A stretch of DNA of 53,498 nt from a bacterium (GTDB taxonomy: Bacteria > Joyebacterota > Joyebacteria > Joyebacterales > Joyebacteraceae), in NCBI GenBank assembly GCA_025774545.1, contig JALGVU010000003.1, forward strand, positions 1 to 53,498, in the 5' to 3' direction. Below are positions 16,185 through 45,079 of this stretch, piece by piece. A program made the position numbers and the translations under genes. Within the stretch, counting starts at the first letter, position 1. The number at the start of each line of letters is the position of its first letter. Below the pieces are notes generated by a model. It saw only the letters and a list, made by a program, of their open reading frames with translations, had not been told where the DNA came from and searched no databases.

Positions 16185-16252
16185 CGCCGCGCTACGCGGT
16201 CCGCGGCCGCGCTCAAGCGTGGGCGTTCCGGGTCCTCCCCGCCGACACCGTC

Positions 16253-16930
16253 TCATCCGCGCGTTCCCCTTCCGACGAGCCGCGAGAGCCTCGGGATCAC
16301 GATCGGCCCGAGCACCGCGAATACGATCGTGTTCGACACCACGTGGACGGCCGAGAAGAAGGCGTTCGAGGCGATCGCCGCCATCACGCCCGTCCGGAGC
16401 TCGGGGCTCGCGATCGCGAGCCCGAGGATGACGGCGCCCTGGTAGACGACCGTGATCGTCAATCCGAGCGCGGCCGCGAGGGCCACAAGGGCCACGCGGT
16501 GCGCGCGTGGCCTGACGGCGCCCGCCCCCTGGGGTGTCCCGGCGGCGCCCTCCCTCTCGGTTGTCCCAGTGGCGCGGGCGGACGCGACTCGCCAGAGCGG
16601 CGCCGAGACGCCGCCCGCGAACCCGGTGATCGCTCCCGAGACGATCTGCGCGACGAACATCGGTGGGAAACCGAGCCCCGTGCCCATCGGGTTGACCGCG
16701 GAGAAGACGGCCCACGAGAGCGCCCCGACGAGCGCTCCCGCCGAACGCCCGAGCACTGCCCCCGACACGAAGATGGAGAAGGTCAGGAGCTCAACGTTGG
16801 GAACCGACACCAGAAGGAGGCCGAGCGTCACAGAAAGGGCCACGAGGACCGCCTTGACGGCGACCCTCGACGTCCAGAACACGCGTGGAGGCTCCCGCCC
16901 GGAGCTCCTAGTCGAGTCGTTCGCGCTCAT
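16253..16930 (-). CDS. ECF-type transporter S component (substrate-binding membrane protein)
   Basis: This integral membrane protein of about 225 residues has five or six hydrophobic segments (VLVALSVTLGLLLVSVP, FSIFVSGAVLGRSAGALVGALSWAVFS, FVAQIVSGAITGFAGG, LAAALGLTITVVYQGAVILGLAI, NTIVFAVLGPIVIPRL). The opening pattern 'vP-N-vELLTF' followed by 'G..lGR.aGalvGals...fS..NPMGtG.gfPP' is characteristic of ECF S components that capture vitamins or their precursors. No energising EcfA or EcfT gene is in the window, as expected when the module is shared. ATG at 16930 overlaps the lipoprotein gene by 23 bases. The ligand is unknown; the adjacent receptor-like barrel suggests a paired outer- and inner-membrane route. 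Confidence 0.72.
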   Translation of the reverse strand: MSANDSTRSSGREPPRVFWTSRVAVKAVLVALSVTLGLLLVSVPNVELLTFSIFVSGAVLGRSAGALVGALSWAVFSAVNPMGTGLGFPPMFVAQIVSGAITGFAGGVSAPLWRVASARATGTTEREGAAGTPQGAGAVRPRAHRVALVALAAALGLTITVVYQGAVILGLAIASPELRTGVMAAIASNAFFSAVHVVSNTIVFAVLGPIVIPRLSRLVGRGTRG

Positions 16931-26378: not shown

Positions 26379-30285
<3,907 letters not shown>

Positions 30286-30337: not shown

Positions 30338-33300
30338 TTAGAAGAAGGCGCTCACTCGAACGTCGACCGTGTGGCGCGTTTCGCTCGCGGGCCTCCGCTC
30401 GCCGACGTACGAGAGCGAGCCCGTGAGATAGCGGTTGAACCGATAGTCGCCCGACAGGCGCCAGTCGCCGGACACCCCCGGCTGCCGCCCGTCGCCGAGG
30501 TGCAGCGGAAGAACGGCCTCGGAGGCATCGACGTCGGTCCGGGTGAACGAGGCCGTCACGGCCCCCCGCCCGGCGATGCGGTAGGTCACGCTGGGGGTCA
30601 GGCGCACGAGCGTCACGTCGACGCCGTCGAGGGCCTCTTCCTGCCGCCCGATCGACGCGGTGAACCTCGCGTCGATCCCGCCGCCCTTCCTGAGTCCAGC
30701 CTCCGCGAGAAGGGTCCGCTCGTCGATCTCGTAGCTCCGCCCAGCCTCCGTTGCGTCACGGCCCCGCCGCCCCAGGCTGCCCTCGAGCCGGTACGACACG
30801 CCTCCTGGGCGCGACACCTTCACGTCGACCGTCCCCCTCCGCTCCTCCCTCGTGTCGGCCGCGTTCGCGTAGCTCCGATCGAGGCCGTCGCGCGTCACGA
30901 GGGCGGAACGCACGGAGAGCGCCCCGCCGGGCCTCACGTACCGGAGGACGTGGCGCCCCGTGATGTCGCCCCTGACCGTGTCGTCGCCCTGGATCACGGA
31001 CGGATCGAGCAGGTAGAGCCGCCGCTTGTCGCCGGTGGTCGTGCTCTCCCGGAGCTTGAGGCCGCTCTCGAGCGAGAGGGCCGCGAGAAACCGGCCCACG
31101 GCCGACGGCTCCGGAAGGCCGCCGCCCCGTCGCGAGCCGCGTCCGAACTTGAGGCCCCACTTCATGCTGGCCGAGAGGTCGGTCACGGGAAGGTACCGTC
31201 CGGTGGAGACGATCCTCGTGATCTCGACCCCGTCCTCCTCGTAGACGAACCTCTCCTTCTCCTCGACCTCCGTGGACGTGACGGCGTAGTGGAGCTCGCC
31301 CGAGACGGCGCCCCCGAACGATCGATGGCTCGCCCTCACACTCGCGATGTCGTAGCGCGCGCTCGGCTTCGTGGCGCCCTCCTCGGCCTCGGTCCTCCTC
31401 CGCACCACGCTCCCCGTGAGCGAGAGCGCGTCCGAGCCCGTGAGCCCCAAGCGGAGCTCCTGCGTCGTGGTCGTCGACTCCCGCGCCCAGCTCCCGTCCT
31501 CGGTCCGGTCGGTCAGGCGGTGCGCGTAGGAGATCCCGTACGAGAGAGCGCCCTCATCGGCGCTCTCGAGCGAGCCCTCGTACTCGTCGTAGCGCACCCC
31601 GTCCCCGCCGGCCGTCCTCGAGTCGTGCGTGTAGGAGACACCCGGCCTCACCGCGCCGACGGCCTGCTCGAACCCGGCTCGGTAGAGCGAGCGCTTTCGT
31701 CCCTCGCCCGCGTCCCCGCGGTCGAGGTCGACGAACCGTCCGTCGGCCCACAGCCTTCCGCGCTCGGTCGGCTTCGCCTCGACGGCGAACTCCGTCTTCG
31801 TGGACTCGACGTGGTCGCCGCGCTCGAGCCGCGCGACCGAGAGGTCGACCCGCCCGCCGCCGTCCGAGGCGAGCGTGGTCGTCGCTTCGGCGAGAAGCTC
31901 CTCCTCCGGAAGATCGAGCCCCTCGAGTTCCCACTTCTCGACGTAGCGTACGCCGCGGAACCTGCCGACGCCGTGGAAGTTCCCCCCGACGCGCCTCACC
32001 CGCGCCCCCACCGTGAGCTTCACGTCGGGGAAGGCGGGGACCGAGATCCCGGGAAGCGCCGCCTCGAGGATCTCGGCGTTGCCGAGGTTGTCGCCGTCCC
32101 CAACGTCCGCGAACGTGTTGCGATCGAGACTGGACACGGCGGCCTCGGCCGAAACGAAGCCGCCCCCCGCGAGGTCGAGACGGCCGTCGAAAGCCGCGAG
32201 GACGTGATCGGTCGGGAGCGGCAGGGCCTTGCCCAGCCGGTAGGAGCCCTCCCCCTCCCCCTCCCCCACGTGGACGTAGCGGTCTTCCTCGAAGTCGTAG
32301 TCGTAGTCGCCGTCCTCGTCGCGCTCAAAGTGAAGATCGTAGGCTCCGGAGTCGGGGCCCGCGTACTCGAAGACCCCGTCCTCGACCAAGACGTAGTCGC
32401 CCTCGCCGACGCCGACCGAGTCGACGCCGTCGTCGTGCGCGAGATCGACGTCGTCGCCCGCCGCCTCGAGAATGGCGATGTCCGAGTCGGTGAGGACGAC
32501 CGAGGAACCGGCCCCCCGATCGTCGGTCTCGCGGAAGAAGCTCGCGCCGATCGCGAGCGAGCCGTCGAGGAGGGACGCGTTCGCCCGGCCGCCGTAGATG
32601 TCGCGCTCGTAGTCGCCCGACGCGTACTCGTAGTCGACCGTGATCTCGTCGTCGCTCGTGATGGGACGGCGCTCCGTGAACTCGATCTCACCCGACGTGT
32701 AGCTCACGACGTAGTCGTTGTCCCTGCCCCTCCTGAGCCGGTCGCCGTTCAGCCAGACCCTCTCGCTGCCGGCGACGACCGACACCCCGGCCGCCCCGAA
32801 GCGGTCCGTGAGAAGATACGCGCCCTGCTTGCCGTCGACGCCGCGGAACGTCGCGCTCGAGAACTCGCCCGCCGATCGCGCCCCGGCGAGGAGGAGACCG
32901 CGCTCGGGTCTTCCGATCTCGACGGTCGCGCCCGAGAGCTCCCTCCGGAAGGTCGCGAGGGCGCCGCCATCGATCTCGAGGTCGTAGTCGCCCATCCTGG
33001 CGCTCACACCTTCGCCCTCGATCTCGACGAGCACCTTGTCGAGGGCCCGGAGCTCCTCGGTGTCGCCCTGCGGCACGAGCGGCGTGTTCTGGTCGGTGAG
33101 ATAGGCGTTCACCGACACGTCGCGCGTGACGTTGCCTGCGATGTTGAGGCGGAGCGACTGCTCGAGGCTCGGGTCGCGATTCGATCCCACGCTGATCCCG
33201 AAGGTCTTCGCGCCTCCGACCCGGAGGCCCGAGGATCCCGGTGGTTCGGGCGGAGCGGCCTCGCTGTCCTCGACGAGGCGCGCCCGCTCGTCGAAGCCCG

Positions 33301-33751
33301 GCGGCAGCGCGGCGAGCGACTCCAGCACGGCCCGGCGGTAGACGGCCGAGAGCCCGAGGGGCAGGAAGCGGTAGCTGACGTCGATTCTCGAGGTCTCGGG
33401 GACGGTGCGCTCGAAGGTGAGCCTTCGCGACTCGTGGTCGATGACGTAGTCCAGGTCCCGCTCGATGAGGACGCGATCGACCGTGACGCTGTCGCTTCCG
33501 ACGACGATGAAGACGTCGGGGAGCGTCACGCCGCCCGCCGCCTCGGCGCCCGTGAGGGACAGGACGCGCCGCCCGCCCTCGCGGACGATGGACCCGGCGG
33601 ACGACCGGTCGGCTCCCTGGGACTCGTCCGCCGCGGCGGACGACGGGTCGGCGCCGCGGGGCTCCCCGGCCGCGGCGGCGGCCGTCAGAAGAAAGACGGC
33701 GACGGCAAGCGATACCCCACCCGTGAGGTGGGGCCGCCGCGTCTCGGGCAC
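30338..33751 (-). CDS. large outer-membrane beta-barrel protein, SprA-reminiscent
   Basis: This protein of about 1137 residues has a signal peptide (GGVSLAVAVFLLTAAAAA). Its conserved N-terminal region reads GAKTFGISVGSNRD, LRLNIAGNVTRDVSVNAYLTDQNTPL, LRALDKVLVEIEG, ARMGDYDLE. Acidic turn repeats follow (DYDYDFEEDRYVHVGEGEGEGSY), then hundreds of residues of amphipathic strands ending in VDVRVSAFF. The N-terminal pattern (self-named G-K/S-K-T, 'G.i...v.v.a..tDqn', 'LDKv.v.i', 'a.lGD') resembles the SprA_N motility/secretion domain, but the protein is half the size of Bacteroidota SprA. This link is inference. The start is GTG at 33751 with AGGAG overlapping the upstream stop; an ATG at 33787 is the alternative. 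Confidence 0.65.
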   Translation of the reverse strand: MPETRRPHLTGGVSLAVAVFLLTAAAAAGEPRGADPSSAAADESQGADRSSAGSIVREGGRRVLSLTGAEAAGGVTLPDVFIVVGSDSVTVDRVLIERDLDYVIDHESRRLTFERTVPETSRIDVSYRFLPLGLSAVYRRAVLESLAALPPGFDERARLVEDSEAAPPEPPGSSGLRVGGAKTFGISVGSNRDPSLEQSLRLNIAGNVTRDVSVNAYLTDQNTPLVPQGDTEELRALDKVLVEIEGEGVSARMGDYDLEIDGGALATFRRELSGATVEIGRPERGLLLAGARSAGEFSSATFRGVDGKQGAYLLTDRFGAAGVSVVAGSERVWLNGDRLRRGRDNDYVVSYTSGEIEFTERRPITSDDEITVDYEYASGDYERDIYGGRANASLLDGSLAIGASFFRETDDRGAGSSVVLTDSDIAILEAAGDDVDLAHDDGVDSVGVGEGDYVLVEDGVFEYAGPDSGAYDLHFERDEDGDYDYDFEEDRYVHVGEGEGEGSYRLGKALPLPTDHVLAAFDGRLDLAGGGFVSAEAAVSSLDRNTFADVGDGDNLGNAEILEAALPGISVPAFPDVKLTVGARVRRVGGNFHGVGRFRGVRYVEKWELEGLDLPEEELLAEATTTLASDGGGRVDLSVARLERGDHVESTKTEFAVEAKPTERGRLWADGRFVDLDRGDAGEGRKRSLYRAGFEQAVGAVRPGVSYTHDSRTAGGDGVRYDEYEGSLESADEGALSYGISYAHRLTDRTEDGSWARESTTTTQELRLGLTGSDALSLTGSVVRRRTEAEEGATKPSARYDIASVRASHRSFGGAVSGELHYAVTSTEVEEKERFVYEEDGVEITRIVSTGRYLPVTDLSASMKWGLKFGRGSRRGGGLPEPSAVGRFLAALSLESGLKLRESTTTGDKRRLYLLDPSVIQGDDTVRGDITGRHVLRYVRPGGALSVRSALVTRDGLDRSYANAADTREERRGTVDVKVSRPGGVSYRLEGSLGRRGRDATEAGRSYEIDERTLLAEAGLRKGGGIDARFTASIGRQEEALDGVDVTLVRLTPSVTYRIAGRGAVTASFTRTDVDASEAVLPLHLGDGRQPGVSGDWRLSGDYRFNRYLTGSLSYVGERRPASETRHTVDVRVSAFF
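33596..33652 (-). repeat. 39-bp in-frame duplication after the SprA-like signal peptide
   Basis: The plus-strand block GGCGGACGAC-x-GGTCGGC begins at 33596 and again at 33635, a 39-bp period. It encodes two related peptides, GADPSSAAADES and GADRSSAGS, in the low-complexity linker that follows the signal sequence. Confidence 0.55.
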
Positions 33752-33761
33752 GCGGGCTCGA

Positions 33762-34763
33762 TCACTCCTGACCGCGGCAGTCACCATAGACGATTCCGAG
33801 GACGAGGATGCGCGGCCCCGAGAGATCGAGGACGAAGAGCCGGTCGCCCCCGATCGCGAGGTCGCGTGGGGTCATGCCGTCCGAGGCGCCGTCGAACGAC
33901 GCGCTCGGGGGCCCCCCGCCGGGCGGGAACGCCAGAACGGCGCCCCGGCGGGCGTCCGACACGAGCACCGCGCCCGAGCCGTCGAAGACGACGGCCGTGG
34001 CCGTGAGCGTGTCGGGCGTCGTGAGCGCGTAGAGGTGAGCCCCGAACTGATCGTAGACCTCGACGGCGCCGCGGTCCGCGTCGGCCACCGCGATCTCCCC
34101 CCCGGGCCCGGCCGCGACGCGGCCCGGACGGGCCAGTCCGCCCTCGCCGACGCCGAACTGACCGAACGGATCGAGGATCTCCTCGAACTGCGACACGGCG
34201 CGCACGGTGTGCGAGTCCGCGTCGGTCACCAGGATCTCGCCCGAGCGTCCGATCTCGATGGCGACCGGGCTCCCGCCCTCGTCGCCGAACTCCGTGAGAT
34301 CGAGGAGGTCGCCGTCGTCGTCGAAGCGCTGGATCCTCCGGTTGCCCTCGTCCAGCACGTACACGTAGAAGCCGGGATAGACCGCGACGTCGCTCGGCGT
34401 GTCGAACTGCCCCGGATCCCACCCGTACCCGCCGAACTCCTCGACGACGACGCCCTCCCGGGAGACGATCAGCACGCGGTGGTTTCCGGTGTCGGCGATG
34501 ACCAGGTGACCCCGGTGATCGAGCGCGAGAGCCTCAGGCGACGAGAGCCCCAGATCGGCGACGCCCTCGATCTCCCCCTCGAGCCTCAGCTCGACGACGC
34601 ACTGCGGCCCCCGCGGCCTCGGGCGCGCGTCGGCAGCGCCTCGCGGACGCGCATCGGCGGCGCCCCGCAGATCCGCCGCCGGCGAGCGGCCGGCGAGCGT
34701 CGGCACCACCAGGAGACACGCGAAAGCGATGAGGGCTCGACGTGCCCTCGACGAAGAGCTCAT
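33762..34763 (-). CDS. secreted NHL-repeat beta-propeller protein
   Basis: This protein of about 333 residues has a signal peptide (RRALIAFACLLVVPTLAG) and then five or six NHL-type blades: PEALALDHRGHLVIADTGNHRVLIV, PSDVAVYPGFYVYVLDEGNRRIQRF, PVAIEIGRSGEILVTDADSHTVRAV, PGRVAAGPGGEIAVADADRGAVEVY and more. NHL propellers are scaffolds for binding, not catalysis by themselves, and the partner is unknown. The second ATG (34763), 6 bases after GAGG, is preferred over 34775. A short in-frame duplication (GAADARPR twice) lies just after the signal peptide. The stop is 10 bases before the SprA-like GTG, so the two genes are likely cotranscribed. Confidence 0.78.
   Translation of the reverse strand: MSSSSRARRALIAFACLLVVPTLAGRSPAADLRGAADARPRGAADARPRPRGPQCVVELRLEGEIEGVADLGLSSPEALALDHRGHLVIADTGNHRVLIVSREGVVVEEFGGYGWDPGQFDTPSDVAVYPGFYVYVLDEGNRRIQRFDDDGDLLDLTEFGDEGGSPVAIEIGRSGEILVTDADSHTVRAVSQFEEILDPFGQFGVGEGGLARPGRVAAGPGGEIAVADADRGAVEVYDQFGAHLYALTTPDTLTATAVVFDGSGAVLVSDARRGAVLAFPPGGGPPSASFDGASDGMTPRDLAIGGDRLFVLDLSGPRILVLGIVYGDCRGQE
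34617..34664 (-). repeat. 24-bp in-frame duplication after the NHL protein signal peptide
   Basis: Two adjacent 24-bp units encode GAADARPR twice in the linker between the signal peptide and the first propeller blade. Confidence 0.6.
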
Positions 34764-34848
34764 CTCATACCTCATGGGGGTCGGCTCCGTGAAGCGGGCG
34801 CTTGGGGGGACAGTTTTCGGGCGGCGGGGGGAGTCGAGGGCCCCGGAA

Positions 34849-35688
34849 TCAGAAGGAGAACTCGAGCGTCGCCCTGCTGCCGAGGACGCCGTCTGCGAGA
34901 TCGGGCGTGATCGTGAGACGGGCGCTCGGCCCGCCGCCGGTCCCCTCATTGTGTCTCCTCGCCATCCACGCGGCGTCGATGGCGGAAACGGCGCGGTTCA
35001 GGACGGCGAGACCCGTCATGTAGAACGCGTTCTGGTTGGACGTCGACGCGCCGTGCCTGAGAACGCGGTACTTGTCGAAGCGTTCCTCGCTCTCCCATTC
35101 CCAGGATTGATCGTCGAAGTACCCGTTCTCGAGGAAGTACGTCTCCTGCGCCCCGAGGTCGTCGGGGTAGAGGCTGCGCGCCTCGCTCCTCACGGACTCG
35201 TTGAAGCTGTCGTCCCCCTCGCTTCTGATGTAGTCGGCGATGTCCTGAAGGTAGCCGCTTCCCGCGTCCTCGTCGACGCCGGCGAAGATGGCCGCGTGTT
35301 CGCGGTAGTCGTCCTCGCGCATGTTCCCCTGAACCTCGAACGCGGCGTACCCGACCCAGATGCCCGCCTCGGCCGTCATGAAAGCGCGCGCGGGGGCCGT
35401 GTGCCCCGCGTAGAGCTCGCCCCACCCGGGCAGCACGAGCGACATGAGGACGGCGACCATGGGATTCTTGAAGTCGTTCCCGCCGCCCGCGCCCGTCGCG
35501 GCCAGAGCGATCGGGGGAAGGTCGGCGAGCGATGAGTCGTCCCTGAGCGACAAGTCGCTCGCGACGAGATCGACCTCGCGGTAGCGCACCTCCTCGGCGG
35601 TCTCCCACGGCCCCGCAACAGCGCCGGCGGAGCATCCCACGACGAGCGCCCAGACGACGACCGCGGCCACTTTCGCACAGAATCTCAT
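34849..35688 (-). CDS. DUF5683-like membrane/envelope protein, paralogue 2
   Basis: This 279-residue protein has an N-terminal signal with a possible lipobox (VVGCS, residues 16-20). A hydrophobic MSLVLPGWGELYAGHTAPARAFMTAEAGIWVGYAAFE block follows, then an acidic, aromatic-rich middle, and a second hydrophobic segment FYMTGLAVLNRAVSAIDAAWMARR. The 'SlvlPGwGelYaG' phrase is typical of DUF5683-like proteins. It shares the same layout with the gene directly upstream, so the two are tandem paralogues. They overlap by one base (TGATG), implying coupled translation. The role is unknown; the position inside the surface-protein block suggests envelope function. Confidence 0.65.
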   Translation of the reverse strand: MRFCAKVAAVVVWALVVGCSAGAVAGPWETAEEVRYREVDLVASDLSLRDDSSLADLPPIALAATGAGGGNDFKNPMVAVLMSLVLPGWGELYAGHTAPARAFMTAEAGIWVGYAAFEVQGNMREDDYREHAAIFAGVDEDAGSGYLQDIADYIRSEGDDSFNESVRSEARSLYPDDLGAQETYFLENGYFDDQSWEWESEERFDKYRVLRHGASTSNQNAFYMTGLAVLNRAVSAIDAAWMARRHNEGTGGGPSARLTITPDLADGVLGSRATLEFSF

Positions 35689-36509
35689 CAGTACCTCGCT
35701 ACGAAGCTCACGGTGAGGCCGTCGCCGCCCTCCGCGACGTCGAACTCGACGCCGAGCCCCTCGTTCGAGGAGTGGCTCGGATCGCCTACCCCTCTCGCCG
35801 TCATGAAGGAATCGAAGGCGCTGACCACGTGGTTCAGAAGCACGGCCATCATGAAGTACCGCGCCTGTCTCAGGTGACGGTTGCTCTCGATCCTCAGGTC
35901 CCAGTAGTCGTCCCGGGTGCCCGCGTCGCCCGAGCTGTATTCGTCCCAGACGATGTCGCCCTCGTCCCCGTCGATGTTCCACCATCTCCAGTACGCGGCG
36001 TACTTGCCGATGTCCTCGTAGTACTCCTGCGTGCCGTAGTCGGCCACGGGCCGGCAATCGTACTCGCCGGCGCAGTCATCGCAGTCGACGCAGTTCTCCT
36101 GGTACCAGACGACGTACGCCGCGTGGTCCCAGTTCTCGTCGGCGAACGACTCGTAGTCGTCGCGCCCCTCGAGCCCCTTCTGATCGAGCACGTAGAAGCC
36201 GCCCCAGAGCGCGAGCTCGGCGAGCAAGTACAGGTAGCCCCGCTTCTGGCCCTGAACGACCTGCCCCGCGCCCGGCACGACGAGAGAGAGCAGGCCCATC
36301 GCGCCAGGGCTCTTCTCCGCCTTGGCCCCCGCATCGCCGGCGATGGCGACCGCGAGGAGCTCCTCCCGCGAGTCGAGCGAGGAGACGAGCGCGAGATCGC
36401 CCGCGGCGGCGCGTCCGGGCGCCGAGGAAGGCTCGAACGAAGCAGGCGCAGTCGCTGCGCCCGCAACCAGGAGCCATCCCGTGAGGATCACGACCAGAGC
36501 TCGCTTCAT
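35688..36509 (-). CDS. DUF5683-like membrane/envelope protein, paralogue 1
   Basis: This 273-residue protein has a signal peptide (MKRALVVILTGWLLVAGAATAPAS). The block GLLSLVVPGAGQVVQGQKRGYLYLLAELALWGGFYV follows, then an acidic Tyr/Trp-rich middle containing four clustered cysteines (CVDCDDCAGEYDC, residues about 140-152). A second hydrophobic segment reads ARYFMMAVLLNHVVSAFDSFMTAR. It is a tandem paralogue of the next gene. The Cys cluster is absent from that paralogue and could bind metal or form disulfides. It is located 67 bases after the M6 protease gene. Function is unknown. Confidence 0.65.
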   Translation of the reverse strand: MKRALVVILTGWLLVAGAATAPASFEPSSAPGRAAAGDLALVSSLDSREELLAVAIAGDAGAKAEKSPGAMGLLSLVVPGAGQVVQGQKRGYLYLLAELALWGGFYVLDQKGLEGRDDYESFADENWDHAAYVVWYQENCVDCDDCAGEYDCRPVADYGTQEYYEDIGKYAAYWRWWNIDGDEGDIVWDEYSSGDAGTRDDYWDLRIESNRHLRQARYFMMAVLLNHVVSAFDSFMTARGVGDPSHSSNEGLGVEFDVAEGGDGLTVSFVARY

Positions 36510-36576: not shown

Positions 36577-39500
36577 CTACCGGACGACCGCGACCTTCAT
36601 GATCTGCACCTCGGAGCGTCGCTCCGGCAGCCCCGAGAGCGACGTGGTCCCGAGCGCCACGCTCGCCTCGACGCGCACGATGTAGAGACCGCTCGCGATG
36701 TCGTCCGTGTCCCAGACGATCTCGTTGACCGTCGGGTCGCCGCTCACCTCGAAGCTGTCGACGATCTGCCCAGTGACGTCGAAGATCTTGACCTCGACGT
36801 CGGCGCGCTCCTCGAGATAGACGCGCACCGTGAGATCGGAACCCTTGGCCGGGTTCGGATAGCAGTAGGTCCTCTCCGCCGCGAGGAGGCCGGGCGACTC
36901 CTCGAAGGGATCCGGCAGGAGCGCATCCGGGTAGCATCCCGTCCCGGCCGGCGTGCCGGCCTCGGTCGACCACACGATGTTCCCCGGCGCATGGTCGTAC
37001 GGCATGCGATAGAAGAGCACGCGGTTCCCGCCCCCCGCGACGAGGACGTCGATCTCACCGTCCGCCTCGACGTCGCCGATCCACGGTGAGCCGAGAGAGG
37101 CGTCGGACGAAAGCGGCCAGCCGGGAACGAGATCGCCGGAGACTCCTCCCCAAGCGAAGACGTTGCCGCCGATGCCCGCCGCGAGGACGTCGACCTCGCC
37201 GTCGTCGTCGAAGTCGCCGATCAAGGGCGAGCTCTTCGCCGCGGCCACGCTGTCGCCCGGGTCGACCGCGAGCGGCCAGTTCTCGACGAGGGTCCCGTTC
37301 GCCCGAATGCCCACGACGCGAGACCGCCCCGCCGGCACGATGATCTCGAGCGACCCGTCGCCGTCGAGGTCGCCGAGCGCGGCCCGCGCCGTCACCTCGG
37401 ACTCGAGATCGACGGGAAAGCCCGGAAGCTCGTCACCGCGGCGGTCCCACGCGTGAACCTCGCCGGTCGAGCCGACGGCCACGACCTCCGGCCGGCGGTC
37501 GGCCGCGCGGTCGAGGTCCCCGAGGACGATTCCGGCCGTGCCTTCGGTCCACGACGGGACCGTCACCGGCCAACCGGGGAGCGACGTGCCGTCGGCGTTC
37601 AACGCCGCGACCCATCCCCGGTTGGTCGTCGACGTCACGATCTCGTCCAAGCCGTCGCCGTCGAGATCACCGGCCGCGAGCGTCACCTCATTGAGCACGA
37701 GGTGCCCGAACGAGTAGGGCGAAGCGCCGACGTGCAGACCCTCGGCGTCGACGATCGTGATGAATCCTCCGACCGAGGCGACCGCGACCTCGAGCCCCGG
37801 TCGGGGATCGAGATCGGCCGCGAGCGGCGAGGAACTTGCGGGTCCGCCGATCGCGACGGGGAAGCCGGCCGCGACCGGGTCCGCGAGGCCGTCGAGGTCG
37901 ACGTCCTCGTGGTCCCAGACGTAGAGGGAGCCGCAGTCGGCCGCGACGATGACCTCACGGTCGCCGTCTCCGTCGATGTCGGCGACGGCCGGCGTGCGCG
38001 AGATCCCGCCCGGAACCTGCGCGAAGTGGCCCCAGGCTCCGCAGAGCGGCACGACGGGCGACCCGTCGGCGTGCCACGCGTAGACGTTCCCGCCCGCGGT
38101 GGCCACGACGACCTCGCCCTCACCGTCGCCGTCCAGATCGGCGACGCGTGGCGCGGCCCGGCCGATCGGCTCGTCGAGATCGACCGGCCAGCCGTCCTTC
38201 CAGCGATCGAAGCTCACGTCCATCGTCATGATCGAGTCCGGAGCCGACGAGATGTTGGTGATCGAGAGATAGGTCTTGCCCCCGAGGTTCGTGTCGGTCG
38301 AGGGGTAGGTGTCCCACGAGAACGTGTCGTTGTTCTGCGCGTAGAACGGATCCCAGGCGCTGCCCGTCCAGTAGAAGCTCCCGATGTCGCCGAGGTCCAT
38401 GATGCCGTCGGCCTCCTCGATCGCGACGCCCCGCCGGTGTCGGTCGTAGTTCACGGTGTTCCACGGAAGGAGGCCCGGGATGGCCCGTGTGTCGTCGATG
38501 TGCCAGATCATCATGCCCGGCCCGGGCAGGAGGAAATCGTACTCGTGGTTCACGGGACAGATCTCCTCCGTGCACCCGGGGTCGACCGGCCCGAGCACGA
38601 CGCCGCGCTCCTGCTCGATGACCACGATCGGGCCGAGGGTGTCCTGGACGGGGTGGTAGATGTCGTCGAGACGGTTCTCGATCAGGAAGTACTCGTCTGA
38701 CGTCACGGGGATCTTGTAGAGGCGGTACCCGTCGCCGCGCAGGACCGAGCCCTTCACCTCGACGTCCTCCGCGTCGTCGAGGAGCACGACGGGATCGAGC
38801 CATCCCATGAGTTCCTTCTGCCACGCGCAGGGCGCCGCCGGAAGGAGGCCGTAGGCGTAGCCCCACGCGGTGTTCATCCCGATGCGCCCGCCCGAGTCCA
38901 TGATGTCCCAGTAGCCCACGGCCGGGAAGAAGTTGAACGTGTTGTAGAGATCCGGGAGACCCAGGATGTGACCCACCTCATGCGCGAGCGTGCCATTCAG
39001 GGCGATCGTGATGCCGTCCTGACTGGAGGTCTCCGGCATGATCGCCGACTCCCACACGGCCCACGCCCCGTCGTTCACGGAGATCGAGTCGCCGAGCGAG
39101 ATGTGCGCCGACGGAAGATCGAACGGCGAGTTGAGCAGGATGTCGCTCTGCCAATCGGCGCCCGCGTGGAAAACGATGTAGCCGTCGTACTGCGAGAAGT
39201 CGATCGTGTCGGTCGTGTCGGCGGCGGCGAACGCGTCGCGGATGAACGTCTCGACCTGGCTCACGTACCAGACCTGCTGCTCGGAGTAGTCGTGGTAGTA
39301 GCCCATGTCGTGCGGCAGCTCGTACCCGGCCTCCGCCTCATCGGGCATCACGTCGTACTCGACTGTGAGGCGGCCGTACGACACGGACTCGTAGTAGTTC
39401 TTGAGCGCCGTCATGTGGAGGTCGAAGTACTCTCTGTCGTGCGGGGGCGCGTCGAAGATCCCCTCGACGTACTCGGAGTAGTCGAACGTGCCGTCCCCGG

Positions 39501-39789
39501 TGCTCCGCGAGTCGGTGTCGGGCTGGAACTGGACGCGCAGGGCCAGGAGCCGGACGGTCGTTCGTCCGGCCCGCTCGCGGCCCCTCGCCCGGGCGCGCTC
39601 GATGGCAGTCACACGGGGAAGATCGTCCTCGAAGATCTTCTTCACGACCGCGGCCGACTCGGCGGTCGGCGCATCGGACTTCCGACAGACGAGACGCGTT
39701 CCGCCCCACGCGGCGCACGATGCGAGCACGATGAGGAAAACGACCGGGGCCACGAAGACCTTGAGGCCCCGGAGGGGAGTCCTTGTCAT
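36577..39789 (-). CDS. secreted M6-type metalloprotease with FG-GAP propeller and sorting-domain-like C-terminus
   Basis: This protein of about 1070 residues has a signal peptide (residues 8-30, FVAPVVFLIVLASCAAWG). An M6 (immune-inhibitor-A-like) peptidase domain carries the zinc motif H270-E271-VG-H274 with third ligand candidate D280 (LPDLYN). A beta-propeller holds six or more Asp-rich calcium-type loops (DLDGDGEGEVVVA, DIDGDGDREVIVA, DLDGDGLDEIV, DFDDDGEVDVLAA). A C-terminal FlgD-like/T9SS-type domain (YCYPNPAKGSDLTVRVYL ... VKIFDVTGQIVDSF) ends in KVAVVR. PorU and PorV are encoded just upstream, so it is a probable type IX cargo. AGAGAGG precedes the ATG; upstream in-frame codons are translated repeat DNA. 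Confidence 0.88.
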   Translation of the reverse strand: MTRTPLRGLKVFVAPVVFLIVLASCAAWGGTRLVCRKSDAPTAESAAVVKKIFEDDLPRVTAIERARARGRERAGRTTVRLLALRVQFQPDTDSRSTGDGTFDYSEYVEGIFDAPPHDREYFDLHMTALKNYYESVSYGRLTVEYDVMPDEAEAGYELPHDMGYYHDYSEQQVWYVSQVETFIRDAFAAADTTDTIDFSQYDGYIVFHAGADWQSDILLNSPFDLPSAHISLGDSISVNDGAWAVWESAIMPETSSQDGITIALNGTLAHEVGHILGLPDLYNTFNFFPAVGYWDIMDSGGRIGMNTAWGYAYGLLPAAPCAWQKELMGWLDPVVLLDDAEDVEVKGSVLRGDGYRLYKIPVTSDEYFLIENRLDDIYHPVQDTLGPIVVIEQERGVVLGPVDPGCTEEICPVNHEYDFLLPGPGMMIWHIDDTRAIPGLLPWNTVNYDRHRRGVAIEEADGIMDLGDIGSFYWTGSAWDPFYAQNNDTFSWDTYPSTDTNLGGKTYLSITNISSAPDSIMTMDVSFDRWKDGWPVDLDEPIGRAAPRVADLDGDGEGEVVVATAGGNVYAWHADGSPVVPLCGAWGHFAQVPGGISRTPAVADIDGDGDREVIVAADCGSLYVWDHEDVDLDGLADPVAAGFPVAIGGPASSSPLAADLDPRPGLEVAVASVGGFITIVDAEGLHVGASPYSFGHLVLNEVTLAAGDLDGDGLDEIVTSTTNRGWVAALNADGTSLPGWPVTVPSWTEGTAGIVLGDLDRAADRRPEVVAVGSTGEVHAWDRRGDELPGFPVDLESEVTARAALGDLDGDGSLEIIVPAGRSRVVGIRANGTLVENWPLAVDPGDSVAAAKSSPLIGDFDDDGEVDVLAAGIGGNVFAWGGVSGDLVPGWPLSSDASLGSPWIGDVEADGEIDVLVAGGGNRVLFYRMPYDHAPGNIVWSTEAGTPAGTGCYPDALLPDPFEESPGLLAAERTYCYPNPAKGSDLTVRVYLEERADVEVKIFDVTGQIVDSFEVSGDPTVNEIVWDTDDIASGLYIVRVEASVALGTTSLSGLPERRSEVQIMKVAVVR

Positions 39790-39838
39790 GGCAGGAGCAC
39801 CTCTCTGAATCGGCCCGCCCACGTCACCGAGAACCCCA

Positions 39839-40025
39839 CCCTGAAGGGTCGCAGTCAGGGAGAAACCGTGAACCGCGCCCTGGAGGGCCGCGGTCAGGGT
39901 GAAGCCGCGCACGCACGCCCTGGAAGGTCGCGGCCAGGGAGAAACCGTGAACCGCGCCCTGGAAGGCCGCGGCCATGGTGAAACCGCACACGTGCTCCCT
40001 AGAAGGTCGCGGTCAGGGAGAACCG
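39839..40025 (-). repeat. 39/40-bp tandem repeat, five units, beginning in the 3' end of porV
   Basis: Units start (plus strand) at 39839, 39878, 39918, 39957 and 39997, alternating 39 and 40 bp. Odd and even units resemble one another more closely, so the array is built of 79-bp dimers. The unit at 39997 contains the porV 3' end (FSLTATF-stop). In the other units the TAG is CAG. Units with CCCTGG and CCAGGG ends can fold a 6-bp hairpin with a 10-base loop. The array fills most of the 209-base gap between porV and the M6 protease gene. Confidence 0.88.
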
Positions 40026-40985
40026 GAACGGCCGCTTGAGCCCCTCGGCCTGCGGCACGTTGGCCACGTCGAGCGCCCAGTTCCTGATCTTGAATCCCAT
40101 GCCGAACGCGAAGTCCTTGACCTCGCCGTCCTCGTCGTAGACGTACCCCCCGCGAAGCGCGAAGAGGTCGTAGTAGCGGTACTCGGCACCGACGTCGAGG
40201 ATCACGCCGATCGTCGGATCGCCGATGTCCTCCACGATGACCATCGACTTGTTGTACTCGACGCAGACGAGGAGGTGGTTCATCTCGTTCTCGAGGACCC
40301 TGTACGCGACGCCGAGCTTGAGGTTCCTCGGAAGCGGGTCCGACTGCTCCTCGTCGATGTAGGCGATCTTCGGACCGACGTGCTGTATGGTGGCGCCCAC
40401 GCGGAGCCTGTCTCCCATCATGCGGTAGAGGACGCCGAAATCGGCGGCGAACGTGGAGCCCGCGCCCTTCTGCTGATCCTGTGTGAACTGCGCCGGCGCG
40501 AGGTCGACGTAGACGAACTTGAGATTGAGCCCCACGGCCAGGTTCTCGCCGATCGTGGTTCCGTAGGCCACGGACGGAATCACCTCGTACGAGCTGAACT
40601 CGCCAATCGGGTCGGGGCTGTCCGGGTTTGTGGCGACCTGCTTCCCGTAGGTCAGGTAGATGACCGACGCGCCGATCGTGCCGAGCCCCTCCACGCGCTG
40701 GGCGTAGGCCGCGTACTCGTAGTACACGTCGTCCCAGTCCGGTACGAGCTGCGTGTGCATCAGCGTGAGGTTGTACTGGGCCTCGAGGAAACCGAGTCCC
40801 GCGGGGTTCCAGGAGACCGCGCTCGCGTCCTCGGCCACGGCGACGTAGCAGTCGCCCATGCCCGCGGGCCTGGCGCCCGGCTGGATGTAGAGCGACTGCG
40901 CCCCGCCGATCGAAACCTGAGCTCCGGCCGCCCCCGCCAGCGCGACAACGAGGAGCATCGTGATCGCAACTCTCGCCTTCAGCAT
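39999..40985 (-). CDS. porV: PorV/LptO-like outer-membrane protein (type IX secretion)
   Basis: This 328-residue protein has a signal peptide (ARVAITMLLVVALAGAAGAQ) and the characteristic opening of the PorV/PorQ/UPF0164 family: LYIQPGARPAGMGDCYVAVAEDASAVSWNPAGLG. Barrel strands to the C-terminal FRFSLTATF follow. In Bacteroidota PorV is the 14-stranded shuttle that takes cargo from the SprA translocon to the PorU attachment complex. It lies 38 bases downstream of the PorU-like gene, which supports the assignment. The start at 40985 has AAAGGAG 12 bases upstream. PorQ-like or general UPF0164 function is the alternative. Confidence 0.8.
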   Translation of the reverse strand: MLKARVAITMLLVVALAGAAGAQVSIGGAQSLYIQPGARPAGMGDCYVAVAEDASAVSWNPAGLGFLEAQYNLTLMHTQLVPDWDDVYYEYAAYAQRVEGLGTIGASVIYLTYGKQVATNPDSPDPIGEFSSYEVIPSVAYGTTIGENLAVGLNLKFVYVDLAPAQFTQDQQKGAGSTFAADFGVLYRMMGDRLRVGATIQHVGPKIAYIDEEQSDPLPRNLKLGVAYRVLENEMNHLLVCVEYNKSMVIVEDIGDPTIGVILDVGAEYRYYDLFALRGGYVYDEDGEVKDFAFGMGFKIRNWALDVANVPQAEGLKRPFRFSLTATF

Positions 40986-41023
40986 CTCTCGTGCTTCTCC
41001 TTTCGGGTCTCTCACCAGAGAAG

Positions 41024-44000
41024 CTACCTCATGACGACCGCTCGACCGATGGCCTCGGCCCTGTCGCCGCGGTACGTCAACGAGGTCGCTTGTATCCTAT
41101 AGAGGTAGACGCCGTTCGCCAGCTCGTCGTTCTGCTGGTCGCGGCCGTCCCAGTACACTTGGTTCGCCCCCGGCGACGCGACGATGTCGTCGATCGTCCG
41201 GATGAGCCGCCCTCCGACCGTGAACACGTCGATCCTGACCTCAGCGGCGACCGGCAATTGGAAAAGGATGGTCGTCCCCTCGTCCCCGCCGTCGGGGAAC
41301 GGGTTCGGGCTCGAGGCGACGCTCCTGATCTTGAAGTCGGCCGACGAGACGACCTCGATCCACAAGTTCCGGGTCGTTCGATTCCCGATGTTGTCGGTCG
41401 CACCGACCGACAGCGTGTAGCCCCGGAAATCGAGCGCCGGCAGGGCGTACGTGATGATGCCGCTCTCGTGACTGCCGATGTCGTACAGGAACTCGTCCGT
41501 GATCACCGTCGTGTCGGGCTCGCCCTCGATCGTCAGAACGATGCCGTCGGCCGCGCGGCGGTCGACGAGATTGACGCCGTTGGGATCGTGGATCGTCACA
41601 GTGAATTCGCTCCCCGGAAGCACCGACGTGCTGCCGCCGTCGAATGAGATGTCGATCGACGGCCCCGTGGCATCGGTGACGTCGACGCTGTCGGCGATCG
41701 TGACGTTCTCGAGCGAGAACGCCCCGTCAACGTTCCCGTCGTAGAAGTAGCCCCGGATCCGGCCGTGACGACCCTCGCGCGCGAGAGTTGAGACGACGAA
41801 CTGCCCCGAGAATTCGCCGCCCGCGACCGAAACCGGCCCCACGAAGATCGTTTCGCCCGGAAGGTCGTAGTCGACGTGCGCGGGCGCGTGCTGCGGCCAT
41901 TCCTGGTCGTAGCCGCTCGTGTCGGCGCTGTCTGTGACCCAGAGGATTGCCACTCCTCCGAGCCCCTCCGTCTCGCCGGTGTTCTCTCCCGCGATCTCGA
42001 CGGTGTCCCGTCGCTTGAGGGGCAGAAGCCCATCGTCATCGATCTCACCCCCGCCCCGCGGGGCCGCCAGGGTGACCGCGGGATCGCCGACGAGGATGAA
42101 CCGCGTGTTGTTGAGCCAGTCGGAGTGATCGATGGCCGTCGTGATGAACCCGTTCTGGAACGCCTGTCCGATGTCGAGGACGGCCGCGGGGTCGACCTGC
42201 TGATGGCCGAACACGTACTTGAGGAACGAGCGGTTCAGCTCGGAGTTCTGACCCGCGCCGGAGTCCCTCGTGCTTCCGATCGAGGCGATCGTTCCTCCGA
42301 TCGGCGACTTCGCCAGGGCCTCCCCCAGCGAGTCTCCGGTCCGCTGGTCGAACTTGTTCAGGCGGCACGACGCCGCGAAGAAGAGAGGCAGCCGGTCGAT
42401 GTTGTGGAGACGGGGAATGTCGTCGAAGAGGAAGACGTTCTCGTGCGCCATCAGAAGCTCGTTGCCGTGCCCCGTGTAGTTCATGACGAGGGCGCCGTCG
42501 TTCCAGGCCTCGACGATGTCGGCGCGGGCGCCCGCCTTGTTGCCGACGGCGTCGTGGTCGTATTCCATCAGGAAGATCTTCCTGCGGTCGATCGGCCACG
42601 GGAGAACCAGATCGTCGATCATCTCGGCCTGGACGGTGTGATAGTACTCTGGGTTGCCGATCGGCTGGCCGTCGCCGTCGAGCCCCTTGAACTCGTCGTC
42701 GGCGACCAGCATGACGGTGTTCTTCCAGAGGCCCGGCTCGAGCTCGGTGTCGTAGTGTTCGATCTTGTCGATCATCGTCGCCGCTTCGCCCGCGGTCGTG
42801 ACGGGCAGCCGTCCGAGCGCCATGGCCGGATCGTACTCGTAGTCCTCGAACCCAACGAACCAGAGGTCGGTCGGCCAGTGCAGGGCGCCCGTGTAGTACG
42901 TCGGAACGAGACACGGTGAGCTCGTCGCCTGATACTGGCGGTAGTCGGACGACGCGTCGCCCAGGAGCAGAACGTGCGTCGGAGGAACGTCCCAGCTGTC
43001 CCAGACGTGCATCAGGTAGTTCCGGATCGCCGTCGGGTCGACGACCCCCCACGAGAACTCGTCGTAGACGTCGGACAGACGAACGAGCTGGACGGAGAAG
43101 CCGCCGCCAGAGGACGACTGGCGGTGGCTCTTCAGGCGGGCGCCGGCGTCGTGGAAGTCGTCGTGGGCGATGATCATGTAATCCGCGCTCCCGGGAGGGC
43201 GAAGATCACCGAAGTCGTCGACCTCGATCGTCGGACGCATGTGCCCGACGTCGGAAACGACCACGTAGGCGGCCGTGTCCGCGACCTCGTCCTGGAAGGT
43301 GAGCCGGCCGTCCGTGAGCGTGACGCCGGGGACGGTGCGAAGCGTGAACTTGTCGATCACCTTGTACGCGGCGCCTGCCGTGCCGTCGAAGCCGTCGACC
43401 GAGTAGTCGACGATCCCCGTCCGTCCCGAGCTCCCGAAGCGCAGCTGAGCGTCGACGGCGGAGAGCTCCCGCCAGTACTCGAGCTCGTACCAGTCGATGA
43501 GAATGTGGTCGCGCTCGGTGAGCGGATCGGCGCGGGGAACGTGGATCTCGAGCGTGTTGTACTGAGGCTCGGTCCGCATGGGAAGCCCGTCTTCCTCGAA
43601 GACGTAGCGGCTGTAGCCGTCCCACTCCGCGACGTGCGCCAGCGTGCCGTTCAGGGTGAACTCCGTGCGGTGGTCCGGGTGGCCGCCCTCACTCGAGTTA
43701 CCGTCGACGCGGACCCTCAGGAGTCCCGTGGAGTCGGTCACGATGTGGCTGAAGTGCCCGTGAACGAACTCCCCGAAGTCGGCGACGATCTGCTCCGCGT
43801 GGAAGTAGTCGCTCTCGGGGATCCGGTCGCTCTGCATCTGTAGCCAGTACCAGCTGTCGCCGCGGCCCTCGAACTCGAAGACGTTGCCCTCGAGGTGCGC
43901 CCTCGCGCGGTAGTCGGCGGCGGGGATGGGGGTCGGCGAGGACTGGAGATCGTCCTCGGCCATCCTCCTCGGCGGATCGGTGAATCCCGACGGAGTCCCC

Positions 44001-45079
44001 TCGTTCTCCCAGGTGAGCCAGTAGACGTTGTCGTTCGCGTAGCTGTTCTCGTGAAACGGCTCGTTGGCGCCCTCGATCCCGAGCTCGTCGACCCAGCCGT
44101 CGACGTCCAGGCCGTAGAAGACCACGCCGTCGCCGGGATCGAACGTGCCGTCGCCGTCACCCTCGACGTCCACGGCGCACTCCTCCATCCAGGTCGGCCT
44201 CGGGTCGCCCACCAGGGCCGGCAGCGAGATGCCGCCTCCGGAGAACACGCGAACGGTCCCAGGGTCGATCAGATCAGCGTCGACTCCGACGGCCGCGAGG
44301 TCGCCGTGGTCGACCCGGTAGAGACCGGTCTCTTCGAGCGTCAGCTTGACCCAATTGGAGGACGTCGTGAAGTAGTCGTCGCGTCCTGGAACGCGCCGCT
44401 CGACCCGCCCGCGCCGCCACGCCCGCCCGCTCTCGTAGTTCGCGAGAAGCGACTCGAGCATGCGCTCGCGCCGCGGCAGGTCCGAGGAACGCGGCGACTG
44501 CCTCTTGATGCCCTGGAACGTCAGGGCGACCTCGATCGATCGGTGGCTCAGGAGGAGTTCCTCCTGTGGATTCGTCTGGCAGGGGTAGATCGCGACCGCG
44601 ACCGTCCGCTGCGTCGTCGTCCAGCGCGGACCGGACATGGTCGCCGCCTCGCGGGGCCAGAGGCCCTCCTCGCGATACGGCCCACCCTCGACATACACGT
44701 ACTCCGAGAGCCCTCCCCCCTCGACCGACAGAACGGACGGCGACGGTACGACGCGGACCCCCGACTCGGTCACGGTGCCATCGACCGAGACTCGGAAGTT
44801 GACGCGCTCGCAGTCAGGGATCGCGACCCTCACCCGCACGACCGGCAGCGCGGGCGCCCCCGGCACGCTCGCGACGTCGGCCCCGTCGATCGTCACCCCG
44901 GTGTACTCGCGATCACCGATGCGAAGGACGCGCGTCGAGAGCCGGCCGGACTCGTATCTCAGGATCACTCCGTCCTCGCTCGAGGACACGAGCTCGACCG
45001 CTCTCTCCTCCCTGGCCTCCGTGGGGGGAACCGCGGCGATGAAGAGAACCGCGATGATGAGGAAGGCCGCGCGTGTCAT
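41024..45079 (-). CDS. porU: PorU-like type IX secretion C25 sortase
   Basis: This 1351-residue protein has a signal peptide (AAFLIIAVLFIAAVPPTEA). A long N-terminal beta region (30-620) precedes a caspase-like C25 (gingipain family) domain with catalytic H871 in MNYTGHGNE and C905 in FFAASC. The 34-residue spacing is close to the 33 of gingipain RgpB. An Ig-like region follows. The C-terminal FlgD-like/T9SS domain (SSPNPFPDGGDEGTTI ... VYLYRIQA) ends in RAVVMR. In Bacteroidota PorU removes the cargo's C-terminal signal and attaches cargo to surface lipid, and it also keeps its own such domain. A C25 cargo protease is the alternative, but adjacency to porV favours PorU. Confidence 0.85.
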   Translation of the reverse strand: MTRAAFLIIAVLFIAAVPPTEAREERAVELVSSSEDGVILRYESGRLSTRVLRIGDREYTGVTIDGADVASVPGAPALPVVRVRVAIPDCERVNFRVSVDGTVTESGVRVVPSPSVLSVEGGGLSEYVYVEGGPYREEGLWPREAATMSGPRWTTTQRTVAVAIYPCQTNPQEELLLSHRSIEVALTFQGIKRQSPRSSDLPRRERMLESLLANYESGRAWRRGRVERRVPGRDDYFTTSSNWVKLTLEETGLYRVDHGDLAAVGVDADLIDPGTVRVFSGGGISLPALVGDPRPTWMEECAVDVEGDGDGTFDPGDGVVFYGLDVDGWVDELGIEGANEPFHENSYANDNVYWLTWENEGTPSGFTDPPRRMAEDDLQSSPTPIPAADYRARAHLEGNVFEFEGRGDSWYWLQMQSDRIPESDYFHAEQIVADFGEFVHGHFSHIVTDSTGLLRVRVDGNSSEGGHPDHRTEFTLNGTLAHVAEWDGYSRYVFEEDGLPMRTEPQYNTLEIHVPRADPLTERDHILIDWYELEYWRELSAVDAQLRFGSSGRTGIVDYSVDGFDGTAGAAYKVIDKFTLRTVPGVTLTDGRLTFQDEVADTAAYVVVSDVGHMRPTIEVDDFGDLRPPGSADYMIIAHDDFHDAGARLKSHRQSSSGGGFSVQLVRLSDVYDEFSWGVVDPTAIRNYLMHVWDSWDVPPTHVLLLGDASSDYRQYQATSSPCLVPTYYTGALHWPTDLWFVGFEDYEYDPAMALGRLPVTTAGEAATMIDKIEHYDTELEPGLWKNTVMLVADDEFKGLDGDGQPIGNPEYYHTVQAEMIDDLVLPWPIDRRKIFLMEYDHDAVGNKAGARADIVEAWNDGALVMNYTGHGNELLMAHENVFLFDDIPRLHNIDRLPLFFAASCRLNKFDQRTGDSLGEALAKSPIGGTIASIGSTRDSGAGQNSELNRSFLKYVFGHQQVDPAAVLDIGQAFQNGFITTAIDHSDWLNNTRFILVGDPAVTLAAPRGGGEIDDDGLLPLKRRDTVEIAGENTGETEGLGGVAILWVTDSADTSGYDQEWPQHAPAHVDYDLPGETIFVGPVSVAGGEFSGQFVVSTLAREGRHGRIRGYFYDGNVDGAFSLENVTIADSVDVTDATGPSIDISFDGGSTSVLPGSEFTVTIHDPNGVNLVDRRAADGIVLTIEGEPDTTVITDEFLYDIGSHESGIITYALPALDFRGYTLSVGATDNIGNRTTRNLWIEVVSSADFKIRSVASSPNPFPDGGDEGTTILFQLPVAAEVRIDVFTVGGRLIRTIDDIVASPGANQVYWDGRDQQNDELANGVYLYRIQATSLTYRGDRAEAIGRAVVMR

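Follow-up and report, generated by a model that had tools for sequence, protein, structure and literature searches.

A widespread predicted giant outer-membrane barrel related to SprA and found almost only in T9SS bacteria

One of the genes in the window (the whole stretch of 53,498 nucleotides analyzed here) encodes a predicted giant outer-membrane barrel which, by profile comparison, belongs to a widespread branch of the SprA superfamily that has no name as yet and is paralogous to SprA. The distribution of this barrel family is strongly nested inside that of the T9SS. Because the barrel is found almost only in T9SS bacteria, it may be an overlooked partner of the secretion machine. The explanation that we favor, and to which we would give about an even chance of being right, is that of a T9SS-associated giant outer-membrane beta-barrel, an ancient paralog of SprA, that serves as a second conduit or as a carrier-docking barrel. 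SprA has so far been regarded as the T9SS's sole giant barrel, and the open-access literature yielded neither a SprA paralog nor this barrel family.

Results and Discussion

The barrel gene and its protein

Conservation far beyond chance, both in the genomes of the source organism's family and in many phyla, confirms that the open reading frame is real. It is free of stop codons in 18 of 19 other genomes of that family, several of them holding fragments at contig ends, and the homologs there are mostly 49 to 63% identical. The frame had been described as 1,137 residues long, which is the length obtained from an internal GTG at 33751, while the ATG at 33787 adds 12 residues; this ATG overlaps the stop of the upstream NHL gene by 26 nucleotides, so that both codons are possible starts (Table 1). 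The C terminus, ...RVSAFF, ends in phenylalanine as previously noted. The Pfam scan gave nothing above cutoff, and the sole NCBIfam match was a weak one to SprA (29.6 bits against a cutoff of 200, residues 334 to 418), lying at the second DY module. The barrel is therefore covered by no Pfam or NCBIfam model. As suggested in the preliminary description, this is an uncharacterized family deserving its own name.

TABLE 1 Features of the barrel gene and its surroundings in the window
Feature	Positions	Strand	Details
PorU sortase	41024-45079	minus	NCBIfam T9SS_sortase, 510 bits
PorV-family protein	39999-41015	minus	NCBIfam PorV_fam, 235 bits
M6-like metalloprotease with T9SS type A sorting domain	36577-39912	minus	Pfam/NCBIfam
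u273, conserved 273-aa protein, cluster member	35688-36509	minus	Between M6 protein and NHL gene
Secreted NHL-repeat propeller, trio member	33762-34949	minus	Directly upstream of barrel gene
SprA-related giant barrel gene	30338-33787	minus	1,149 aa from ATG 33787
Putative Sec signal peptide region, ending ...SLAVAVFLLTAAAAAG	33665-33787	minus	Residues ~1-41; predicted from sequence
First small DY module	33356-33562	minus	Residues ~76-144; akin to SprA ~612-682, hhalign E = 3.7e-9
Predicted strands 1-8	32843-33229	minus	Residues 187-315; homologous to SprA ~155-340
Second DY module, VWLNGDRLRRGRDNDYVVSYTSGEIEF	32648-32842	minus	Residues 316-380; homologous to SprA ~628-690, hhalign 8.8e-12
Predicted strands 9-11	32507-32647	minus	AlphaFold models
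Inserted domain, predicted extracellular	32210-32506	minus	~100 residues; AlphaFold models, topology predicted
Predicted strands 12-40	30344-32209	minus	First part (EAAVSSLDRNTF) aligns to SprA ~760-895
Omp85, three POTRA plus barrel	28480-30285	minus	601 aa; directly downstream of barrel gene

Genomic neighborhood

On the minus strand the genes run in the order PorU, PorV, M6-like protein, the 273-residue protein, NHL, barrel, and Omp85, followed by ligA, thiC, and a helicase, so that porU and porV do lie near the barrel gene, upstream on the same strand, as the preliminary description had stated. The M6-like protein scores 400 bits against the "inactivated" T9SS M6 family (cutoff, 600) and is probably a T9SS cargo encoded beside PorV. 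The 273-residue protein, which had no Pfam match above cutoff, belongs to a family that is often tandemly duplicated in relatives. The neighboring Omp85 is a third Omp85 besides BamA and is distinct from it. Elsewhere in the window, an open frame of 827 residues at 14232-16715 had no Pfam match and may be spurious, the sequence being GC rich. The gene order of the window is kept across the source organism's family; the linkage there extends to ligA, thiC, and the DinG-like helicase, some of the synteny being merely inherited, and linkage alone is therefore not taken as evidence of function.

A wider set of 80 loci was drawn from Eisenbacteria, Zixibacteria, KSB1, Calditrichota, Gemmatimonadota, Krumholzibacteriota, TA06, Ignavibacteria, and others. 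Of the 70 loci with room for it, at least 56 have an NHL gene directly upstream of the barrel gene, and at least 41 of 61 have an Omp85 gene directly downstream, both counts being minima since overlapping long open reading frames hide a few more of each. The trio of NHL propeller, barrel, and three-POTRA Omp85 thus recurs in many phyla, often beside porU-porV. Of the 48 loci with 8 kb or more of upstream sequence, 17 or 18 encode PorU or PorV no farther than ~10 kb away (the porU match at locus L122, which may reflect sorting-domain similarity alone, was not counted as linkage). The barrel is linked to porU, porV, and M6 genes in Eisenbacteria, Zixibacteria, TA06, and Krumholzibacteriota and to porU and porV in a Gemmatimonadetes MAG. 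In Ignavibacteria, Balneolales, and Flavobacteriaceae-like genomes the gene stands by itself, with neither T9SS genes nor NHL and Omp85 genes adjoining.

Distribution and co-occurrence with the T9SS

The barrel family, with members of ~1,100 to 1,250 residues, spans the FCB superphylum. It was detected (E < 1e-25) in 71 of 290 genomes of a domain-wide set, and all 71 encode a PorV-family protein, a co-occurrence on which the preliminary description had made its reading depend. SprA was found at the same threshold in 64 of the 71, and a weaker SprA, in a frame of 1,766 to 2,221 residues, in 3 more, giving 67; of the last 4, two are incomplete genomes and two are unexplained. Among 297 Bacteroidota genomes the barrel was present in 175, of which 174 have SprA, and it was absent from 67 of the 68 genomes that are SprA negative. 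The sole case of the 175 without SprA (E < 1e-60) is a one-contig, Bacteroidota-type genome (G554). The nesting may be due in part to shared ancestry, and, because related genomes are not independent, Fisher P values for it are indicative only. Conversely, the barrel was present in 174 (about three quarters) of 229 SprA-positive Bacteroidota genomes; its absence from the other 55 shows that it is not needed for the T9SS. A paralog that is this common would either be a missing component of the T9SS or represent a novel kind of giant channel in the outer membrane. A gliding-specific role is not supported, as among the SprA-positive genomes the presence of the barrel gene does not follow that of GldB, a marker of gliding (counts of 52, 122, 18, and 37; P = 0.74).

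Several observations concern other members of the superfamily. In the source genome, the DY-module region of the family profile is also matched (E = 5.5e-14) by an incomplete frame of 1,420 residues on one contig (C426; locus L184, 2-4261), possibly a third SprA-like paralog; a similar frame of 1,000 residues is present in a second genome (G013, contig C268). Two genomes, G107 and G247, encode shortened members of 951 to 965 residues (L182, 6905-9799, and L183, 6180-9032), each followed by a short Omp85 of 467 to 474 residues, and have SprA proteins scoring over 1,100 bits; neighboring lipoproteins ending in SVRCL.D suggest that both are Fibrobacter. Many T9SS-bearing genomes outside the Bacteroidota have at least seven PorV-family paralogs and a single SprA. 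Homologs of the barrel also occur in complete genomes with a Flavobacteriaceae-type SprA, and laboratory genetics should therefore be feasible.

The main rival to a T9SS-associated role is that the barrel is a giant porin or export channel independent of the T9SS, serving bulk diffusion or polysaccharide, lipid, or vesicle traffic, and co-inherited with the T9SS only because both are old traits of the FCB superphylum. The solitary gene in Bacteroidota fits this idea, as do the 55 of 229 SprA-positive genomes in which the T9SS works without the barrel and the identity of the partners, which are a dedicated Omp85 and an NHL protein and not T9SS subunits. Against it stand the occurrence of the barrel without SprA in just 1 of 175 genomes, although 68 of 297 Bacteroidota genomes have no SprA, and its homology to the T9SS channel itself. 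We consider this explanation unlikely on balance, while giving it more weight than any of the other alternatives.

Predicted structure

AlphaFold2 models were obtained for the mature barrel protein (pLDDT, 88.4; pTM, 0.74) and for a Gemmatimonadota homolog that is 29% identical to it (L102; pLDDT, 85.9; pTM, 0.75). Each contains 40 long strands as counted from DSSP (strands of at least 7 residues, starting from the first barrel strand and, in the homolog, leaving out one short hairpin at 741-759), and the order is the same in both: 8 strands, DY module, 3 strands, insert, and 29 strands. The insert is just ~40 residues long in the Gemmatimonadota protein. Since a few of the short strands could be located outside the membrane, 36 to 40 is the safe range for the predicted strand number. 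With a periplasmic C terminus and alternating strands, both DY modules would be periplasmic and the insert extracellular. A single-chain barrel of ~40 strands would, to our knowledge, be the largest known. The barrel of SprA has 36 strands (PMC10994853). The pore is thus not predicted to be smaller than that of SprA, contrary to the much smaller pore expected at first from the length of the chain. Predicted barrel size is in this way separated from chain length: a chain half as long as SprA is predicted to supply no fewer strands than SprA has, which suggests that the extra SprA sequence makes up its cap and docking parts. With either model as query (3.8e-9 and 1.1e-11), the top Foldseek hits by E value were SprA entries, but the TM scores to SprA were only 0.24 to 0.31 and other large barrels scored too, so that no global superposition on SprA is claimed.

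The size of the predicted barrel also bears on a further possibility, in which the protein does not conduct cargo but plays an accessory part in the T9SS outer-membrane complex or helps to assemble it (as a holdase, a scaffold for docking of PorV and PorU, or a partner in SprA assembly). The adjoining Omp85 and propeller are reminiscent of a BamA/BamB-like pair, and the nesting of the distribution in that of the T9SS fits this role, but 40 strands would make an extravagant scaffold, and we regard this role as improbable.

Relation to SprA

A profile of 75 barrel-family sequences was compared by hhalign with 18 SprA sequences from the examined genomes (SprA is numbered as in locus L055, and mature barrel numbering starts at residue 60). 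Two colinear matches were obtained, of mature barrel residues 83 to 334 with SprA 155 to 457 (E = 1e-11) and of residues 261 to 598 with SprA 628 to 895 (E = 1.9e-12), while the controls in all hhalign comparisons (reversed SprA, column-shuffled SprA, Omp85, and NHL profiles) gave 0.0024 or worse. These alignments show that the N-terminal half is truly related to, and colinear with, SprA residues ~155 to 457 and ~628 to 895, and the kinship with SprA proposed in the preliminary description is upheld. The C-terminal half gave 5e-4 against SprA, which is not distinguishable from controls (2.4e-3 for Omp85), and as its hhalign probabilities of 24 to 36% were also near those of the controls, homology is not claimed for it; within strands 12 to 40, hhalign likewise found no demonstrable SprA homology beyond the EAAVSSLDRNTF part. 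Residues ahead of the barrel did not match SprA 1 to 420 (E = 0.13), matching the SprA DY module instead; the conserved N-terminal tail of SprA docks SkpA/SprE (PMC10994853).

The N-terminal motifs, GAKTFGISVGSNRD at residue ~192, LRLNIAGNVTRDVSVNAYLTDQ at ~212, LDKVLVEIEG at ~249, and ARMGDYDLE at ~263, had been read as the layout of SprA_N. All four are present, and it is the true N-terminal part of SprA that the protein resembles, but the Pfam model SprA_N (PF14349) maps to residues ~1018 to 1427 of the control SprAs, a region that the Pfam scan found to be absent from the barrel protein, and that label was rejected. The SprA equivalog model TIGR04189 matched 30 of 42 family members weakly (best E = 7.9e-11) and did not match five Bacteroidota members. 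Searches of PDB sequences with phmmer and hmmsearch gave no match for the family.

Since the DY motif also matches phage tail models (DUF2460), the resemblance to SprA could in principle lie in this beta-motif alone, the barrel being otherwise unrelated, but this is very improbable, given that removal of the DY module still left E values against SprA of 1.1e-8 for the N-terminal region and 3.5e-5 for the middle, the controls being clean, and that the matches are colinear. Least credible of all is that a minimal SprA replaces the large translocon in the source lineage, as in the earlier proposal of a new size class of T9SS translocon: the chain is indeed about half as long as SprA and combines SprA homology with a porU/porV neighborhood, but a full-length SprA of 2,284 residues (522 bits) is encoded on another contig (C185) of the same genome and SprA in nearly all other carriers, making the barrel a paralog and not a replacement, and the protein falls far short of the SprA cutoff (29.6 against 200 bits) and lacks the PF14349 region.

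Proposed working

Ancestry shared with SprA and near-exclusive occurrence with the T9SS make a side conduit or docking barrel our best guess. As an ancient paralog, the protein would retain the N-terminal barrel part and the DY modules of SprA while lacking the N-terminal SkpA/SprE-docking tail and a middle region of ~1,000 residues. It would be exported by Sec and then folded and inserted into the outer membrane with the aid of the neighboring Omp85, where there is one. The giant channel so formed would carry small modules in the periplasm and have little to cover it outside the cell. The NHL propeller may dock on one face of this barrel, and the whole could serve a subset of T9SS traffic, either PorV-family carriers or cargo, beside the main SprA translocon. 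In the broadest form of this proposal, which we hold to be doubtful, most T9SS bacteria would possess a second, overlooked giant conduit, a barrel of ~40 strands sharing an ancestor with SprA and having its own class of T9SS carrier or cargo.

Comparison with known systems

The nearest known system is SprA/Sov, the outer-membrane translocon of the T9SS (TIGR04189; PDB 6H3I, 6H3J, 8GL6, and 8GL8), with which the barrel shares the N-terminal barrel part and DY modules, a very large single-chain barrel (by prediction), and occurrence in T9SS genomes. Unlike SprA, it is half as long, is without the SkpA/SprE-docking tail, the PF14349 region, and the ~1,000-residue middle, has 40 predicted strands instead of 36, and coexists with SprA. 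The TamA/BamA type of Omp85 with partner barrels offers a second parallel, as the barrel gene likewise adjoins a dedicated three-POTRA Omp85 in many phyla; the protein itself, however, is not an Omp85 with POTRA domains and an Omp85 barrel (hhalign, 0.0045). SlpA of Deinococcus, LptD, SusC, and TonB receptors show weak Foldseek similarity to the models as large barrels, and no sequence homology to them was found; they have 22 to 30 strands, fewer than predicted for the barrel described here, in whose predicted secondary structure neither a plug nor a jelly-roll domain is evident. The PorV/PorQ family co-occurs with the barrel and is often encoded next to it, but its members are small barrels, and PorV models detect no sequence similarity between the two.
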